DNA of 50,252 nt. Origin: Pseudobdellovibrionaceae bacterium (GTDB lineage: Bacteria > Bdellovibrionota > Bdellovibrionia > Bdellovibrionales > Bdellovibrionaceae). Made by a program: the position numbers and the translations under genes. Numbering within the stretch: the first letter of the stretch is position 1; each line of letters opens with the position of its first letter. The notes beneath the pieces were generated by a model, which was not told the DNA's origin, did no database searches, and saw only the letters and a list, made by a program, of their open reading frames with translations. Positions 186 through 23,720 of the stretch are shown here, piece after piece. Location of the stretch: NCBI GenBank assembly GCA_013359135.1, contig JABWCN010000002.1, positions 1 through 50,252 of the forward strand. Reading direction: 5' to 3'.

Positions 186-2051
186 ATGGCATTACCTCCT
201 TCTCCTATTCCTAGAGGGTCCCGTTGGGAACGAATTAAATTCATATCAATTATGTTGTTTAGGGTGGCCCTAGCAACAGGTCTCGCCTTGTTTATTACTC
301 AAATTAAGTTAGATTTTTTTGAATCCTATCTTTATGATATGAGAGTCAGATTAACTCCTGTACCGACAACTTCTGGAAACATTCAGATAATTGAAGTGAC
401 TCCAGAAACGGTTGAATACTTTAAGGGAATTCCTAAAGCTGAGCATCATAAAAAACTAATGGAATGGTTGATTCCATTAGCTCCAAGAGCGATTGTCTAC
501 GATATCAATTTTGACGAAATTTTGGGTTCTGAAAAAAATAAAAAAGAATTTGCTCGTGTTATGGAATCCTTTCATCAGTTGTTTGTATTGACTAATTTTT
601 TAGAGATGAGAGGTGAAGAAGGGAAGCTAAAACTTTCAGAACCTTACGAGAAAATTAAGTTATTCTCTGGGCCAAAAAGCTCTGATACTGCTAACTTTGC
701 TAAAGATGGAGTTACGCGTAGAATGATGATTAACTACCAGGATCAAGTGATGCTTCATCCTTTTCTGGCGAGTCAAATTAACACAGAGATTGTGGATAAG
801 TTCAAAATAAAAGGATTATTTGATTTTCTTGAGACAGATCAAGTATATATTCGTTTTAGGCCCACTGGCACTTATGCTAAGATTCCTTTTCATGAAGCAT
901 ACAAAGGTCTTATATCAACTCAGGCCTTCAAAGATAAGATAGTTTTGATAGGTCATAATTTAGAACTCTCGGAAAAAGATTATTTGATGACGCCCTATTC
1001 GCGTTCCTCTATTGCTATGACAACCACAGAAATGCATGCAAACATGTTTGATACTTTGATTCTGAACAATGCGATTTCAAAGGCACCTCAGTTTGTAAAT
1101 ACATTAATCACAATTTTAATTTCTATTGTAACAGTTTATATTGTTTTTGCATTATCACCAGCGATGGGATTATTTATTATTATTCTACTTTTTATATCCT
1201 ATTTACTTATCTCTTATTTTTTGTTTTGGCCTTTTGGTATTTGGATTTCTATGGCTCATCCACTTTTGGCGATTTTTCTTTGTTATTACTTTTTTATTCC
1301 TTATCGTTTGATTATAGAGAATAGAAGAAGTTGGGAGTATTACCAAAAGAATAAATTATTAAGACAAGTGGAAGAACTAAAAACCAATTTTATTTCTATG
1401 ATGTCCCATGATTTAAAAACTCCAATTGCAAGAATTAAAGGTATGACAGATGTTATAATTAACGATGGATTTACGGTTAGTCCTATTCAGCGGGAAGCTC
1501 TTGATACCATTAGGAGTTCTAGCGATGATTTACTTAAGTTCATTAACTCGATTTTAAACTACGCTAAAATTGAATCTCAGGGAGTTGAGCTCCACTTGCA
1601 GTCAAAGGATCCAAATAATTTACTAACTGACGTTATTAGAAAGCATGAGTTTTTGGCAAAGGTAAAGAAAATTTCGATTGAAACGGAATTTGAGCCATTG
1701 TTTCCAATTAAGATTGATCCTGAACTGATGAAGCAAGTATTTTCCAATTTGATAGAAAATGCTATTAAGTATTCTCCCGAGGAAACCATTATTAAAGTTA
1801 TTTCCAAGGAGATTGATGGTATGGTAGTTGTCAGAATTTCTGACAGTGGTCTTGGAATTCCGGCCCAAGAATTGCCTAACCTATTTATGAAGTTCTATAG
1901 GAGTGCAAATGCTAAGAGTTCACCTATAAAAGGGTCAGGATTGGGCCTCTATCTGGCTAAATATTTTACAGAGCTTCATGGTGGTCGCATTTTTGTTGAA
2001 TCTGTCTATGGTCAAGGAACTGATTTTGTAGTAGAATTGCCCCAGAACTGA
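186..2051 (+). CDS. CHASE2-domain sensor histidine kinase
   Basis: This 621-residue membrane kinase senses an unknown extracytoplasmic signal and should phosphorylate a response regulator, most simply the product of the next gene. An N-terminal membrane segment (about 21-40) is followed by a periplasmic CHASE2 domain (about 45-295) and three closely spaced membrane segments (about 305-385). A short coiled linker then leads to HisKA with the phospho-accepting His408 in SHDLKTP. The HATPase domain has the N box NLIENA (about 520), the G1 box DSGLGIP (about 553) and the G2 box GSGLGL (about 584). The layout of one N-terminal segment, CHASE2 and three segments is standard for the family. The ligand cannot be read from sequence. 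All catalytic motifs are intact. The start is the first ATG; no strong binding site lies directly before it. Confidence 0.92.
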   Translation: MALPPSPIPRGSRWERIKFISIMLFRVALATGLALFITQIKLDFFESYLYDMRVRLTPVPTTSGNIQIIEVTPETVEYFKGIPKAEHHKKLMEWLIPLAPRAIVYDINFDEILGSEKNKKEFARVMESFHQLFVLTNFLEMRGEEGKLKLSEPYEKIKLFSGPKSSDTANFAKDGVTRRMMINYQDQVMLHPFLASQINTEIVDKFKIKGLFDFLETDQVYIRFRPTGTYAKIPFHEAYKGLISTQAFKDKIVLIGHNLELSEKDYLMTPYSRSSIAMTTTEMHANMFDTLILNNAISKAPQFVNTLITILISIVTVYIVFALSPAMGLFIIILLFISYLLISYFLFWPFGIWISMAHPLLAIFLCYYFFIPYRLIIENRRSWEYYQKNKLLRQVEELKTNFISMMSHDLKTPIARIKGMTDVIINDGFTVSPIQREALDTIRSSSDDLLKFINSILNYAKIESQGVELHLQSKDPNNLLTDVIRKHEFLAKVKKISIETEFEPLFPIKIDPELMKQVFSNLIENAIKYSPEETIIKVISKEIDGMVVVRISDSGLGIPAQELPNLFMKFYRSANAKSSPIKGSGLGLYLAKYFTELHGGRIFVESVYGQGTDFVVELPQN

Positions 2052-2091
2052 ACTTCAAATAGTTAAGTGAAAAGAATAGGGAGAATAGACT

Positions 2092-3651
2092 ATGTTTAAA
2101 ATTCTAGTCGTGGATGATGATGCTGGATTAAGATTATCAATAAAGTCAGCTTTTTCAATTAGCTCTAAGTTTGAAGTAATGGAAGCCTTTGATGGTATCA
2201 ATGCCATGGAGAAAATTAAAAACTCTGGAGTTAAGTTTGATGTGGTGATTTTGGACGTCGATATGCCAAGATTGAATGGTCTAGAGACTTTGAAACAAAT
2301 CAAAGAGTTTGATCCTGGAATTATAGTTCTTATGTTAACTGCTCACGCAACTTTAAATGATGCTGTTAATGCTGTTAAGGATGGAGCTTATAACTATCTT
2401 TCAAAACCAGTTTCTAGTGAAGAGTTATTGGCATTGGTTGAAAAAGCCATGATTGCTCACTCAATGATTTCTAATATAGCGGCAAGTTCTCCGGTGTTAG
2501 TCGAAGCGGGTAGAAAAATTATTGGTAATACCTCTCAAATGCAGAAAGTATTTAACATTATTCATAAATTAGCTAAGGTAGAAACTCCTGTATTGATTCG
2601 AGGAGCCAGCGGTACTGGAAAAGAATTAGTAGCTAAAGCCATTCACTTTAATTCAACAAGGAAAGATGAAAAGTTCGTAGCAATTAATTGTTCTGCAATT
2701 CCAGAGAATCTTTTCGAGTCAGAACTGTTTGGACATGAAAAAGGATCATTTACGGGTGCCAGTGAGCGAAAGATTGGTAAGTTTCAATACGCTGAAGGTG
2801 GAACTTTATTTCTAGATGAAGTGGGTGATATGCCTCAATTGATGCAAGTTAAGATCTTGAGGGTATTGCAGGAAAAATTATTTACGCCGGTAGGTTCAAA
2901 CCGTGAGATCCAATCAAATGTTAGAATTATTGCCGCTACAAATAGACCATTGGAAGAAATGATTAAGGTTGGAACTTTCCGTGAAGATTTGTTTTACCGA
3001 CTAAATGTGGTTCCAATATTTTTACCAGCACTATGTGACAGGAAAGAAGATATTGAGCGTTTAGTTAATATTTTTGTAAAAAAGTTTAATGAAGTTCACC
3101 GAAAAAAAATTACTGGGGTTACTGCTGATGCTATGAATATTCTTAAGAAGTACTCTTGGCCTGGAAATATCAGAGAATTAGAAAATGTGATTGAGCATTC
3201 TTTTGTTCTAGAGAGTAATCATGTAATTTCTATTGCTTCACTTCCAGAAAGTGTGCTCGCAGCAGTTGGGGTGAATTTGATTGATTTGGACAGCCTAATT
3301 GAGTCTGAAAAGACCAATGAGCAGGCGAATAACTCTGAGCTAAACTCAAGTGGATCTTTTGCGAAGGCACCTGTTTTTGTTGATTCAGGAATAGATATCA
3401 ACGATGAGGATTCCGATTTATCTGAAGAGGATGTGGAAGACTCTGATGCATTAGGAATGAAGGTAACTTTTAATGGTGAGTTGGACTTTAATGCACAGAA
3501 GGAAGTTTTTGAAAAAGAATTTATTATTAAAGCTTTAAAAACTTTTAAAGGTAGAATTAATCAGACAGCTCTTCATGCGAACATTCCTAAAAAAACTTTA
3601 CTAAGAAAGATTGAAAAATACGGAATTGTTGCAAAAGATTACTCCGAATAG
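2092..3651 (+). CDS. Sigma-54-dependent response regulator (NtrC family)
   Basis: A 519-residue transcription activator expected to work with sigma-54 RNA polymerase. The receiver domain (1-120) has the acidic triad D8-D10 and phospho-acceptor D55 in ILDVDMP. The AAA+ domain carries Walker A GASGTGKE (171-178), the sigma-54 contact loop as GSFTGA (218-223, with Ser in place of the commoner Ala) and the Walker B region LFLDEVGDM. A Fis-type helix-turn-helix ends the protein (about 485-515, ending KKTLLRKIEKYG). Between AAA+ and DNA-binding domains lies an unusual acidic, Ser/Glu/Asp-rich linker of about 80 residues (about 395-475). It starts 40 bases after the CHASE2 kinase, so the two very probably form a two-component pair. 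I found no convincing sigma-54 promoter in the nearby gaps, so targets are unknown. Confidence 0.93.
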   Translation: MFKILVVDDDAGLRLSIKSAFSISSKFEVMEAFDGINAMEKIKNSGVKFDVVILDVDMPRLNGLETLKQIKEFDPGIIVLMLTAHATLNDAVNAVKDGAYNYLSKPVSSEELLALVEKAMIAHSMISNIAASSPVLVEAGRKIIGNTSQMQKVFNIIHKLAKVETPVLIRGASGTGKELVAKAIHFNSTRKDEKFVAINCSAIPENLFESELFGHEKGSFTGASERKIGKFQYAEGGTLFLDEVGDMPQLMQVKILRVLQEKLFTPVGSNREIQSNVRIIAATNRPLEEMIKVGTFREDLFYRLNVVPIFLPALCDRKEDIERLVNIFVKKFNEVHRKKITGVTADAMNILKKYSWPGNIRELENVIEHSFVLESNHVISIASLPESVLAAVGVNLIDLDSLIESEKTNEQANNSELNSSGSFAKAPVFVDSGIDINDEDSDLSEEDVEDSDALGMKVTFNGELDFNAQKEVFEKEFIIKALKTFKGRINQTALHANIPKKTLLRKIEKYGIVAKDYSE

Positions 3652-10193: not shown

Positions 10194-10459
10194 TTTTATC
10201 AGAGGAACGACAAACTCACTGGGCACATTTGCTAACAGACGCAATTTGGAATGATGATCTTGTTGATTATTCTGATGAGGATCAAGCTTTGCGTATAGCT
10301 AAGAAAATCATTCAAGAATTTGTAAAAGAGGACCTTGAAATAGATAAAAAAGCGAAAGAAAAAGTGGCCTCTTTAAAAAGAGGAGTTATCGAGGGTTCTC
10401 CTGAATGGGAAGTTCTTTACAAAAAATATTATGAAGAGGAAAGAAAAAGACATGGCTAA
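10190..10459 (+). CDS. DUF507 family protein, second copy
   Basis: An 89-residue helical protein that fits the DUF507 family along its whole length, including an N-terminal EERQTHWAHLL helix, a region like IIQEFVKEDLEID, and the ending EWEVLYKKYYEEE. No signal peptide, metal site or catalytic motif is visible. Its start overlaps the stop of the first DUF507 gene by four bases. The GroES-like gene starts inside its last codons with an eight-base overlap, so the three genes form a tightly coupled operon. The role is unknown. The constant pairing suggests that the two proteins act together, perhaps as a heteromer, but that is inference. Confidence 0.88.
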   Translation: MILSEERQTHWAHLLTDAIWNDDLVDYSDEDQALRIAKKIIQEFVKEDLEIDKKAKEKVASLKRGVIEGSPEWEVLYKKYYEEERKRHG

Positions 10460-11030
10460 AAAGACTACGAAGACTAAGACAAAAGCTGTAAAAAAGGTGA
10501 ATGTAAAAGTTAAGACTGTTGCTAAAAAATCAGTACCAGTGAAAAAATCTTCTAAGAAAATAACGAAAAAAATAGCGCCTAAGAAAGTAAGTAAGACTTT
10601 ACCTAAAGCGTCTTCTAAGGTGTTAAATAAATCTAAGTTAGTGAGTAAACCTAAAAATTCTTCTAAGGCTAAGTCTGTAAATACTAAAGCTTCAGCTATA
10701 ACAACTTCTAAAATTGTTAAGATTGATTTTGCAGCGATGTTGACTCCGTTAGATGACCGAATTTTGGTGCAAATAAAAGAAGAAGAAAGAATGACTCCTG
10801 GTGGATTATACATTCCGGATACAGTGAGTGATGTTTCTGGAAACTTTAAGGGAACAGTTGTGGCTGTTGGCCGAGGGCATATGAATAAAAAAGGAAAAAT
10901 TAAGCCATTAGATGTTAAACCCGGTGACGTTGTGGTGTTTTCTCAGTTCTCTGGAAGCAAAGTGGATGTCCAAGGTCAAACAGTTATGTTTTTAAGAGAG
11001 TCTGATGTTCTAGGTGTTGTAAATAAATAA
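10452..11030 (+). CDS. GroES-domain co-chaperonin with a lysine-rich N-terminal tail
   Basis: The last 95 or so residues are a complete GroES domain: LTPLDDRILVQ, a mobile loop ending GGLYIPDT, GTVVAVGRG, PGDVVVFSQFSG and a final SDVLGVV. GroES rings cap the GroEL chamber. Before it lies a tail of about 90 residues made mostly of Lys, Ser, Thr, Val and Ala with many AKK, KSSKK and APKK repeats. It resembles histone H1 or bacterial histone-like tails and is far outside the usual 95-100 residue family length. I place the start at ATG 10452 because AGAGGA (10435-10440) stands 11 bases upstream; an in-frame ATG at 10431 would overlap the previous gene more. No groEL follows, so this is probably a second, specialised co-chaperonin. 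Confidence 0.88.
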   Translation: MAKKTTKTKTKAVKKVNVKVKTVAKKSVPVKKSSKKITKKIAPKKVSKTLPKASSKVLNKSKLVSKPKNSSKAKSVNTKASAITTSKIVKIDFAAMLTPLDDRILVQIKEEERMTPGGLYIPDTVSDVSGNFKGTVVAVGRGHMNKKGKIKPLDVKPGDVVVFSQFSGSKVDVQGQTVMFLRESDVLGVVNK

Positions 11031-17076: not shown

Positions 17077-17122
17077 TAAATAAAACCTAGAAACCATTTA
17101 ATACCTATCTTAAATGGCTTCT
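17077..17122 (-). terminator. Rho-independent terminator for the three-repeat protein gene
   Basis: On the - strand, 17122-17110 pairs with 17101-17089 over 13 positions with one G-U pair and an eight-base loop. It is followed by the T-rich AGGTTTTATTTA (17088-17077). It lies 29 bases past the stop of the gene ending at 17151. Confidence 0.75.
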
Positions 17123-17150
17123 ATTAATTAGAGGAAAATACAACTTTAGT

Positions 17151-17825
17151 CTATCTGTTACCACTCAAAAATTGTTTACAATCAGAAATATTAGTAAAAG
17201 TTTCTGAACCTTTTTTAACTGAAATATCGATAAGGTTTAGGCTTATTGCAATATAAGGAGTCCTTCCGTCATTATCTCTGGAAGTGCAAAAAATCACATT
17301 TTGTCCCTGAGTTTTAAGTTCTTTTAGTGTCTGTTGGCATTGTGATTTATCGCTTGAAACTGTGTATGGAATTTTGTTAATTTTTGCGCCATCTAGGATG
17401 GAAAGTTGATAAGGCGTTCTGCCATCACTGTCTCTTGAAACACATAAGAGCGTTCTTCTTCTAACTTGTCGAGTACTTGCAAGCGCGGTTTGGCAATCTT
17501 CCTTAGTAGAAAAAGATTCACCTGGAATGCGAACCACATCGACGCCATTGCGATAACCTAAAACATAAGGATTGCGGCCATCATTATCTCTAGAAACACA
17601 AGAGTAATCAGGGAAATCTGTGGGATCTGAAGAGTTGTTCATAATTCTACGAATTGATTCCAGATTTCTGGCAATTTTTTGAATTTGATCTTGAGATAAA
17701 TAGCGTGCTTCCTCTTTTAAATCAGCAGCAATTTCTTGTGATTGGCGCTGGATCGACTGAGGTGTCTGAGCTATTGAGATGATTGAGACTAGTAAACCAA
17801 GAGTACTTAAAAATAAAAGTTTCAT
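17151..17825 (-). CDS. Secreted protein with three evenly spaced Cys repeats
   Basis: A 224-residue exported protein with a signal peptide (about 1-20) and a helical stretch. Three copies of a domain follow that I do not recognise from a named family. Each begins C-[VT]-S-R-D-[NS]-D-G-R-x-P-Y and ends in a second cysteine. The first cysteines are residues 76, 128 and 180, exactly 52 apart; the partners are 111, 163 and 216. A disulfide within each unit is likely in the periplasm. The acidic DxDGR core resembles a calcium-binding loop, which is inference. Codon use differs between copies, so the duplication is old. GGAGA supports the ATG at 17825. The gene has its own terminator and lies divergent from another secreted protein gene. 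Confidence 0.82.
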   Translation of the reverse strand: MKLLFLSTLGLLVSIISIAQTPQSIQRQSQEIAADLKEEARYLSQDQIQKIARNLESIRRIMNNSSDPTDFPDYSCVSRDNDGRNPYVLGYRNGVDVVRIPGESFSTKEDCQTALASTRQVRRRTLLCVSRDSDGRTPYQLSILDGAKINKIPYTVSSDKSQCQQTLKELKTQGQNVIFCTSRDNDGRTPYIAISLNLIDISVKKGSETFTNISDCKQFLSGNR

Positions 17826-18012: not shown

Positions 18013-18405
18013 ATGATAAAAAATGCACTTCTTTTGTTTATTTTAGTTGTAGGTATGAGCTTTTCTGCTCAGGCACAAAATTACGTTAGACCAGTTCCTG
18101 GTTATGGATACCGTCCAGTTCCCTTACCTTTACCTGTTCCTGTGCCAGTTTATCCACAACCTTTGCCTGTTCCCTATCCTCCACCTTACCCAGGAACTTC
18201 ATATCCAGTACCTTATCCGGCTCCATATCCTCAATATCCACAGCCAATTTTGGTTCAACCCTATGTTATTACCTGTAACACTGTAGGTTTGGTGAATGGT
18301 TTAATTTATTATGGTATTGGTAATGATATTTACACAGCAACTCAACGTTCTTTGTTCGTCTGTCAATCAGTGGGACAGATTTGTCGTTTGGTAGAGTGTC
18401 ACTAA
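18013..18405 (+). CDS. Secreted Pro/Tyr/Val-rich protein, 130 aa
   Basis: After a clear signal peptide (about 1-21, ending SAQA), residues about 22-85 are a low-complexity run of Pro with Tyr and Val, in short units such as PVPVP, PYPPPYP and PYPAPYP. This will form an extended polyproline-type stalk. The last 45 residues are a compact domain with four cysteines (TCNTVGL, VCQSVGQICRLVECH) that probably makes two disulfides. The layout of stalk plus Cys-rich head suggests a cell-surface or envelope-spanning protein, but I recognise no family. GGGGAG 6-11 bases upstream supports the start. It precedes ileS by 59 bases on the same strand. Confidence 0.78.
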   Translation: MIKNALLLFILVVGMSFSAQAQNYVRPVPGYGYRPVPLPLPVPVPVYPQPLPVPYPPPYPGTSYPVPYPAPYPQYPQPILVQPYVITCNTVGLVNGLIYYGIGNDIYTATQRSLFVCQSVGQICRLVECH

Positions 18406-21805: not shown

Positions 21806-23455
21806 TTAGAAATCGAACAAAGTTCCAGTGCTAGAGTTTCTGGTTCCAGATCTTAATACTCTACCTGTACCTGTTGTGCCACTCCTAAGTGTCGAAGAGT
21901 TATTACCTCTGAGGTTCATAGTTCGGCTTGAGTTAGTGATGCCATTGATTGAACTGTTGTCTAGTATATCGTAATTTCCAATACTTGTTCCGTATGTTGA
22001 TCCACAACTGTCGACATTGAGACCAATTTCACGATTATAAGATCTACAAAATCCGTTATGCTCATTTGTGAGTTCCCTAATTATTTTATTGAAGAATTCT
22101 GAGCCAACTAAGTTTCTAGAGTCAGACATACCAGATAATATTCCAGAGAATAAATCTTGATCCATAGATTTAAGGAACTCATTATTCATCATGAAACTAC
22201 TAAAGTTGTATCTGGTGCCAAGTATGTCTTTATTTTTTTCAGCGACTTTCATATCTCTATAATTTGTTAGAGCTTCTTTCGCTTGTTCTTTAACTGCTTC
22301 TTTGTATAGGCTTGTTACTTCTTTTCTAACATCTTTGTATTTAGCACCTAAATTTCTAAGTAACTCTTTAATAAGCTTTACAGCCTTATCTTTCTCTTTT
22401 CTCGCAGTAGCCTTTTCTTCGTTAAATTCCATGATCATTGAGTATCTGTCGCTGAAATCATCATTGTAAGCTAATGGCATAGAAAACTTATGTGTTAACA
22501 TTTCTTTCAAGCCATCTTTGATATTTTCAGTAAAAAAATCAAGAGCTTCATCATCAGTCACGTCAATTTTATTTTTTTGTTTATCAAGTTTTTTGTTTAA
22601 GAAACTCATAAATTTTCCGACCTTACATTCAATTTGATCAGCAGCTTCTTTAGATTTTTTATCACACAAGGTATTAATAGTTTTTAATAATTTTGTTCCT
22701 TTAGAGTCGTCAACTTCTTCAGAATCTTCATTTTCAACTTTATCTTTTGCAATCACAGCTGGTTTAGTAGTTTTGGCAGCTGTGGCATCTTTTCTTTTTT
22801 CGCGATGAGATAAGTCTTCTCGAATTAAACGTTTTATGTCAGCAAGATCAGCAGCAGTAGAACCTCCAGCGAATTTTACAGTTGAGGTGTCTCGTCTACA
22901 GATACCATTAGAACAATCAGAGCCTTCAGTGAGTTGAGGTTCATATGATAGTTCCGTTGAACCATCATTATAAGTTGTGACTTTGTAGCTGTAACGAGTA
23001 CCTTCAAGCAATACAGAGTCGTACTCTACTTTAATAATTGAAAGTTTTTGGGCTGGCACTTTAGGTTTTTCTTCTTGTGGTGTGGATTGAGTATTTACTG
23101 GCAAAGCTGCAGTTACAGTTTCTACTGGTGCTTCTGATGGTTTTACGGTTGCAGTTTTAGGTTGTTCTTGGGGTTTATCCGGTTGGGGGATATCTGGTTT
23201 TGCAGTCACTACAGCAGTGGTAGCTGGGGGTTGCGTATGTGATGTAACTTCATTTGGTTTGATTTTATAAAAAGGCGGTGGCGTGGAGGGTGTTGCTTTA
23301 GCTTGTATTGCTGCACTGTCTGTGGGCGGTGCTTCCGCAGCAAGAGTCGCTTGACCCTCAGTTTGCGTGGTCGTCCCGGAGACGCTAAAAGCAAGAGCCG
23401 CAAATAGTGAGCTATAGAGTAGTGCATTTTTATTTATGTTGATAAAGTGTTTCAT
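21806..23455 (-). CDS. Large secreted protein of unknown family
   Basis: A 549-residue exported protein I do not recognise. A signal peptide (about 1-28) leads into a Pro/Thr/Ala/Lys-rich, probably disordered stretch (about 30-140). A small segment with two cysteines (DCSNGICRRD, about 180-190) follows, then a long charged helical region rich in Lys and Glu (about 205-430), and a Ser/Thr/Asn/Gly-rich tail that repeats RSGT. I place the start at 23455, not at the longer frame's 23533. GGAGG stands five bases before this ATG, and the signal peptide begins there. The gene is monocistronic, with a terminator downstream. A structural role in the envelope is possible but unsupported by any motif. 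Confidence 0.78.
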   Translation of the reverse strand: MKHFININKNALLYSSLFAALAFSVSGTTTQTEGQATLAAEAPPTDSAAIQAKATPSTPPPFYKIKPNEVTSHTQPPATTAVVTAKPDIPQPDKPQEQPKTATVKPSEAPVETVTAALPVNTQSTPQEEKPKVPAQKLSIIKVEYDSVLLEGTRYSYKVTTYNDGSTELSYEPQLTEGSDCSNGICRRDTSTVKFAGGSTAADLADIKRLIREDLSHREKRKDATAAKTTKPAVIAKDKVENEDSEEVDDSKGTKLLKTINTLCDKKSKEAADQIECKVGKFMSFLNKKLDKQKNKIDVTDDEALDFFTENIKDGLKEMLTHKFSMPLAYNDDFSDRYSMIMEFNEEKATARKEKDKAVKLIKELLRNLGAKYKDVRKEVTSLYKEAVKEQAKEALTNYRDMKVAEKNKDILGTRYNFSSFMMNNEFLKSMDQDLFSGILSGMSDSRNLVGSEFFNKIIRELTNEHNGFCRSYNREIGLNVDSCGSTYGTSIGNYDILDNSSINGITNSSRTMNLRGNNSSTLRSGTTGTGRVLRSGTRNSSTGTLFDF

Positions 23456-23720
23456 AGGTCCTCCAATTTCGTGGGAGTCATCCAGACTCGTAAAAGTTGT
23501 TACACTTAATTGGAATGCAAAGACCAAGACCAAGTTTGCTAAAAGCCAAAAATCTTTATAATTGATTATGTAGCTGATTTTAAAAGGTTATTTTCATATT
23601 AAAAATCGTTTCAGATTGATACAATGTCTAAATTTTGGTGTTTCACAATGAGAATAATTAAATTAAGTAGAATTTTCAATAACTTGACTATCAAATGAAA
23701 AATCTCTACTAAGCTAGTGA

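Follow-up and report, generated by a model that had tools for sequence, protein, structure and literature searches.

The open reading frame P0001 probably encodes an exported protein in which a signal peptide and a helical hairpin precede three disulfide-stapled modules resembling the YegP (DUF1508) fold. On balance, it is best explained as an adaptor or ligand binder of the envelope or periplasm and not as an enzyme. P0001 lies on the minus strand of the window, i.e., the whole 50,252-nt stretch of Pseudobdellovibrionaceae bacterium DNA analysed here.

Repeat anatomy of P0001

P0001 is a single open frame from an ATG (17151..17825, minus strand) that encodes 224 aa plus a stop. Its translation has cysteines at residues 76, 111, 128, 163, 180 and 216. 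A sequence-only reading had described a triple repeat with first cysteines exactly 52 residues apart (76, 128 and 180), an S-R-D-x-D-G-R-x-P-Y core and a partner cysteine 35-36 residues on. The translation bears this out: x-S-R-D-x-D-G-R-x-P-Y stands behind every first cysteine, and the partner cysteines are offset by 35, 35 and 36 residues in units 1, 2 and 3. Alignment, conservation and model delimit unit 1 as residues 72-123 with C76 and C111 (17457..17612), unit 2 as residues 124-175 with C128 and C163 (17301..17456) and unit 3 as residues 176-224 with C180 and C216 (17154..17300), all on the minus strand. From sequence and model, the R-D-x-D-G-R-x-P-Y loop occupies residues 79-87 of unit 1, between strands 1 and 2 (17565..17591), and recurs at residues 131-139 (17409..17435) and 183-191 (17253..17279) of units 2 and 3, again on the minus strand. 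The repeat is genuine and the similarity between units is far above chance; local alignment of the units in pairs gives scores of 95, 92 and 69, whereas 2,000 shuffles of each pair score no higher than 46, 37 and 40, respectively.

The N-terminal signal, MKLLFLSTLGLLVSIISIAQ, was judged by eye to be a secretion signal; the probable signal peptide comprises residues 1-20 (17766..17825, minus strand), and the N-terminus of relatives is similar. P0001 would be exported by the Sec route. Residues 23-63 (17637..17759, minus strand), a segment included in profile A8 (see below), are predicted at low confidence to fold into a short helical hairpin, or stalk. A linker follows (residues 64-71; 17613..17636, minus strand), placed by sequence and model; in several relatives it is longer and rich in Pro and Gly. 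Right past the P0001 stop is a terminator-like stem of 14 pairs with a T-rich tail (17088..17123, minus strand); this is a consensus match only; the region contains two such matches, where shuffled sequence has 0.8 on average.

Searches with P0001 found no Pfam model above its cut-off and no NCBIfam model at E <= 10, in agreement with the earlier description of the domain as unnamed. Pfam rows for DUF7547, Toprim and CYP38_PsbQ-like were rejected, each being below cut-off and two lying on the N-terminal part, and a single-sequence search of solved structures gave a best E of 0.031 across ten residues only. With alignment A1 (12 proteins), single members touch unrelated Pfam families, the best being THOC7 with one member at E 9e-4. 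When unit and full-length profiles were used as queries, they matched designed ankyrins through a short turn motif, and helical proteins through the N-terminal part, among rows due to chance. The ankyrin match, to the solved structure 1n0r, has E 1.9e-10 over four repeats, but only a 20-24-residue D-x-x-G-R-x-P stretch aligns and each repeat has an E of its own above 2. In addition, the P0001 unit is 52 residues long, is mainly strand in the model and carries a Cys pair, and does not have the 33-residue helix-turn-helix form. The match was rejected because the short turn motif alone aligns, and the probability that these are ankyrin-type repeats is close to nil.

Predicted structure and likely relation to DUF1508/YegP

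In the AlphaFold2 model of P0001, from an alignment of two rows (P0001 and one relative), the blocks of residues 71-220 have mean confidence values of 81-90 and those in front of residue 71 have 31-63, with the low-confidence helices of the hairpin at 23-40 and 45-63. The model of unit 1, built from six rows (unit 1 and five other units of P0001 and the L031 protein), has a pLDDT of 82.8, with strands at 3-7, 16-22 and 25-34 and a helix at 37-50. The sequence-only reading had proposed a structure prediction as a check, and the outcome is a predicted strand-strand-strand-helix unit with YegP/DUF1508 among its structural matches. Members of that family (PF07411; 2k8e, 2k49, 2k7i, 3bid, 6q2z) have a like unit of about 50 residues, in tandem in YegP, and the same order and length are found in the predicted models and their structural matches. 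The pattern of turn, strand and helix is similar, and 3bid has a Cys at the helix position.

When the unit was searched against the PDB with Foldseek, 3bid came first (prob 0.87, E 0.55); it belongs to the UPF0339/DUF1508 proteins. A second structural comparison placed 6lvb_B, the small subunit of dimethylformamidase, on top; its residues 77-127 superpose on the unit with Z 6.8 and 1.6 A over 49 residues. There followed 6lvv_B (Z 4.9) and the UPF0339 proteins 6q2z (Z 4.5, 2.8 A over 49) and 3bid (Z 4.2, 2.8 A over 48), and beyond 3bid the Z values are 3.5 and less. However, 6lvb_B is an enzyme subunit, with 18% identity to the unit. In PMC7686228 it is thought to stabilise the large subunit; its authors regard the fold as not described before and find four helices and two strands in it.

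No Foldseek match reached E 0.001, for either the unit or the whole model. With the whole model, mainly beta-propeller proteins come first in the PDB, weakly. Among viral models, DUF1508 proteins rank 38th (prob 0.97, E 0.56, rmsd 2.0) and 50th (prob 0.93, E 0.66, rmsd 2.2), each aligned over one unit (54 columns), and the ranks above them are held by other kinds, beta-propellers among them. The three units could be blade-like and make up half a propeller, which the pairing of two molecules would close, as in small lectins whose propeller is completed in this way. Many of the best full-length neighbours are beta-propeller proteins: the second comparison lists 5jrk (Z 6.8) and sortilin 9r18 (Z 6.5), and the Foldseek search neuraminidases and kelch proteins. 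Such Z values are common according to the tool's own note, however, and query-normalised TM-scores are at most 0.32 among the best 50 matches. Each unit also has a helix and alone matches YegP-like folds. A half propeller is thus quite unlikely.

Profile comparison concurs with the resemblance to YegP at moderate strength. Against A7, an alignment of seven segments from solved DUF1508 members, the unit aligns in register over 38-46 columns with a score of 19.9. A larger unit set scores 18.1 and 21.7 depending on the direction of the comparison; among the controls, no column shuffle of 200 exceeds 12.6 in the former direction, and in the latter none of 100 shuffles exceeds 11.8 and the reversed control scores 6.3. 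The profile probability is 25-61%, while the score exceeds all shuffles. The helix Cys aligns to a DUF1508 place occupied by Ala in four segments, by Arg in two and by Cys in the remaining one, NMB1088 (3bid). N20, in the turn between strands 2 and 3, and Y30 are invariant in these segments; at the Y place before the helix, 37 of the 82 aligned unit rows have F and 21 have Y, and the unit lacks a fixed N. PF07411 has no match in P0001 at E <= 10 and none above cut-off in 59 genomes. The profile search proposed earlier thus gave a mixed outcome, with DUF1508 aligned in register above all shuffles and still below the Pfam threshold, and the view that no named domain with this pattern is known has to be amended, since the predicted fold resembles YegP/DUF1508. 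By its model the unit appears YegP-like in fold, and it falls outside PF07411 by the threshold of that family. Common descent with DUF1508 is likely, though not proven. P0001 differs from the known members in that it is apparently exported, has three units with an invariant Cys pair, shows a Pro-aromatic pair past the turn and has a helical hairpin in front.

Conservation of the unit and the metal-binding question

The conservation set has 82 aligned rows, 80 of them units from 27 proteins and the other two parts of the L073 protein; a match to the unit profile was required of every row. All rows read at the respective place have the first Cys (79/79) and the second (82/82). The Pro after the turn is found in 80 of 81, as is an aromatic residue (Y/W/F; 80/81). 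All six cysteines of the repeat part are present in 26 of the 27 proteins, and the exception, L097, has an unread stretch. Each invariant Cys pair would form a disulfide that ties strand 1 to the helix. The two loop Asp residues are kept singly in 66 of 80 and 70 of 81 rows. No polar residue other than Cys is invariant in the unit alignment.

The sequence-only reading had suggested that the DxDGR core could bind metal, so that the R-D-x-D-G-R loop of each unit would hold Ca2+ or another ion. Of 80 units, 63 have both Asp residues of D-x-D, and 20 of the 27 proteins have them in every unit read. The other seven (L011, L030, L099, L104, L105, L106 and L107) lack D-x-D in at least one unit, and three of these lack it in every unit while the Cys pair is still present. 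L104, L105 and L106 are near copies of one another. Asp ligands in every unit, as an EF-hand-type repeat would have, are thus wanting in 7/27 proteins. Where D-x-D is lost, Cys is always and Pro and the aromatic are nearly always retained, and at the loop place YegP proteins show a turn in which D-x-D is not fixed. P0001 has no metal-binding family above the Pfam cut-off or in NCBIfam, and Metal_resist is touched by two of the 12 A1 relatives, with E 0.057 at best. Because D-x-D is absent from at least one unit in so many proteins, the case for metal binding by DxDGR is weakened, and a metal-binding protein is an improbable reading. The Asp-Gly loop would instead be mainly a hairpin turn ahead of the nearly invariant Pro-aromatic pair, although most units retain R/K-D-x-D-G, which could serve there as an active or metal site.

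One of the proteins without D-x-D, L011 (genome G014, 892-1971, plus strand), has its three units, with SRYNNGSSPY in place of the DxDGR motif, behind a glycine-zipper domain (PF05433).

Distribution and evolution in Bdellovibrionota

Profile searches covered the phylum of the window, Bdellovibrionota. BLAST over 99 genomes, that of the window among them, gave matches at 13 loci, spread over 11 genomes, with E <= 1.2e-9, the remaining rows having E > 0.07. Of 140 genomes of the order, 22 match a full-length profile of 12 of these proteins (E <= 0.01), and in 12 of those 22 genomes the three-unit part is matched, at 14 loci and E <= 2.8e-40; two of these loci, in G111 and G014, are outside the 12 source proteins of the profile. 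At E <= 0.01 the unit profile matches 13 of 143 genomes of the class and 28 of 368 of the phylum. Exactly three unit matches are found in 22 of the 28 carrying genomes. G025 has six in two proteins; G022 has five in two proteins, with one unit below threshold; G306, G311 and G314 have two each, the third being seen on alignment; and G099 has one, the L073 protein. The five other genomes of the genus of the window all lack a unit-profile match. The genome of the window itself has no paralogue by protein, full, unit or hairpin profile (best other rows E ~0.3), and no relative was found in phages, plasmids or viral contigs. A pattern scan of 60 stretches from named genomes, of low sensitivity, confirmed one relative. 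The L031 protein, from a Bdellovibrionaceae bacterium, is identical to the L003 protein of G025.

For the 72 units of 24 three-unit proteins, the nearest unit in another taxonomic family holds the same position 55 times: 24/24 for position 1, 10/24 for position 2 and 21/24 for position 3. The modules thus carry position-specific sequences, clearest in units 1 and 3, and the triplication is old, units 1 and 3 having kept their identity and unit 2 to a lesser degree. Families are intermingled in the protein tree, with 9 changes where the minimum possible is 5 and the shuffled mean 12.7, and G025 members lie on both sides of a branch with support 92/87; paralogy, transfer or both would account for this.

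The confinement to the phylum of Bdellovibrio found so far, in searches limited to that phylum, brings up a different function, whereby P0001 would be an enzyme or inhibitor delivered to prey, with the conserved loops as its active or contact site. The protein is apparently exported and its charged loop is strongly conserved, but no polar residue besides Cys is invariant and no enzyme family is above the Pfam cut-off for P0001. Such an enzyme or inhibitor for prey is considered unlikely, and an enzyme role is disfavoured because of the lack of an invariant polar residue.

Other repeat types and a possible shared hairpin

The L073 protein (G099, ORF 1387-2541, minus strand) has a BD_b_sandwich domain (PF18820) followed by five tandem C-W-x-G units, which are related to the P0001 unit. 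It matches the unit profile with 38.8 bits in all, and its profile score of 26.5 stands against a shuffle maximum of 12.6. It differs from P0001 in having five units without the DxDGR motif and a beta-sandwich domain in front.

The full-length profile gave 14 further matches, which are by the N-terminal part or weak; those by the N-terminal part mostly include the signal peptide. Nine of them precede other tandem repeats. L044 (E 1.1e-6) has three C-HIDDDRDFT units behind a similar N-terminal part, L056 (3.8e-6) two units, L045 (2.5e-5), from the same genus, three, and L046 (3.8e-4) three of the C-x-SNGSDDHFERF type. L057 and L058 (7.7e-5 and 1.3e-4), both ORFs of 257 aa, each carry C-KHTGNNWYRL four times, in near-identical units of about 42 residues that follow a similar N-terminal part. 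L047 (5.3e-4), L048 (5.4e-4) and L051 (0.0011) have two units each. Of the remaining five matches (L049, L050, L052, L053 and L059), the four other than L053 have no such repeats in the frames read. At least seven unit sequence types were seen.

A hairpin profile built from the main type only, without signal peptides, was run on 1,284 ORFs of the collected loci. The top outsiders are L047 (1.1e-5) and L058 (1.9e-5), L057 (1.9e-4) and L045 (0.0012) come next, and L174 and L173 are close behind at 0.0025 and 0.0026; L044 and L056 are absent from these matches. It should be noted that the loci were partly picked by the earlier full-length profile and the ranking is not independent. A BLAST search with L045 matched the N-terminus of a main-type protein of G025 at E 7.2e-6; residues 6-68 of L045 align, and these take in the signal peptide. 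Profile A8 was built from both protein sets, so that its strong matches are circular; it adds L163 (E 4.8e-4), with three units like those of L044. The unit of L044 and L163, C-HIDDDRDFT or C-x-x-DDDPDFT, is a different Cys repeat. Matches of the L046 type occur in two of 66 genomes of the family (G010, that of L046 itself, and G035). Two of the hairpin-borne types other than the main one were not found in the genome of the window at E <= 0.001.

Compared with the main type, unit type T57 scores 15.4 and T45 17.6, only slightly above a shuffle maximum of 14.0 in both cases, and T51 scores 14.7, within the shuffles (1/100 as high). Common descent of the T57 and T45 units with the main type is not claimed because their scores barely exceed the shuffles. 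From the comparisons of the N-terminal parts, a shared hairpin is likely for some repeat types and is unproven for others. A speculative extension, which we regard as rather doubtful, is that Bdellovibrionota have modular exported recognition proteins, whereby one hairpin module bears diverged tandem Cys-stapled units and species differ in their binding heads for prey or envelope targets.

Gene neighbourhood

The nearest gene upstream of P0001 is small, divergent and Pro-rich, and beyond it is an isoleucyl-tRNA synthetase, identified by reading; downstream are an amino acid permease and an S41 peptidase. No neighbour family is found at more than three of 18 loci of the repeat gene. Outside two sister-species pairs, the recurring neighbours are common kinds only, such as regulators, hydrolases, helicases, tRNA synthetases and GroES, as named by reading.

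Other genes of the window were noted in passing. A secreted-type protein of 130 aa (18013-18405, plus strand) is very Pro/Tyr-rich, has a short Cys-containing C-terminal part and has no Pfam match. A GroES-like protein, by reading (10431-11030, plus strand), has a Lys-rich extension of about 100 residues at the front and groups with a 100-aa protein of L111; at both loci the GroES-like gene is less than 10 kb from the repeat gene. A Lys/Glu-rich protein of 575 aa with a TTG start (21806-23533, minus strand) has no Pfam match.

Proposed function and significance

A binding or scaffold role of P0001 in the envelope is the most likely one, and is proposed with moderate confidence. The three tandem YegP-like modules, each of three strands and a helix, would be borne on the helical hairpin and would work by binding, in the envelope or periplasm. 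Against this explanation stand the lack of a PF07411 match, the low to middling profile probability, the failure of Foldseek matches to reach an E of 0.001 and the top Z of 6.8 with an enzyme subunit. The alignments behind the models also have two and six rows, and position 2 is kept in only ten of 24 units.

E. coli YegP is called uncharacterized in a published report (PMC13373217), and the literature searched in part on the DUF1508/YegP family and Bdellovibrio did not yield an exported form of this type. The analysis moves an unnamed protein family toward a known fold, that of YegP, itself poorly understood. In P0001 this fold would take an apparently exported, disulfide-stapled and triplicated form, and a set of similar exported repeat proteins is indicated in the order of Bdellovibrio.
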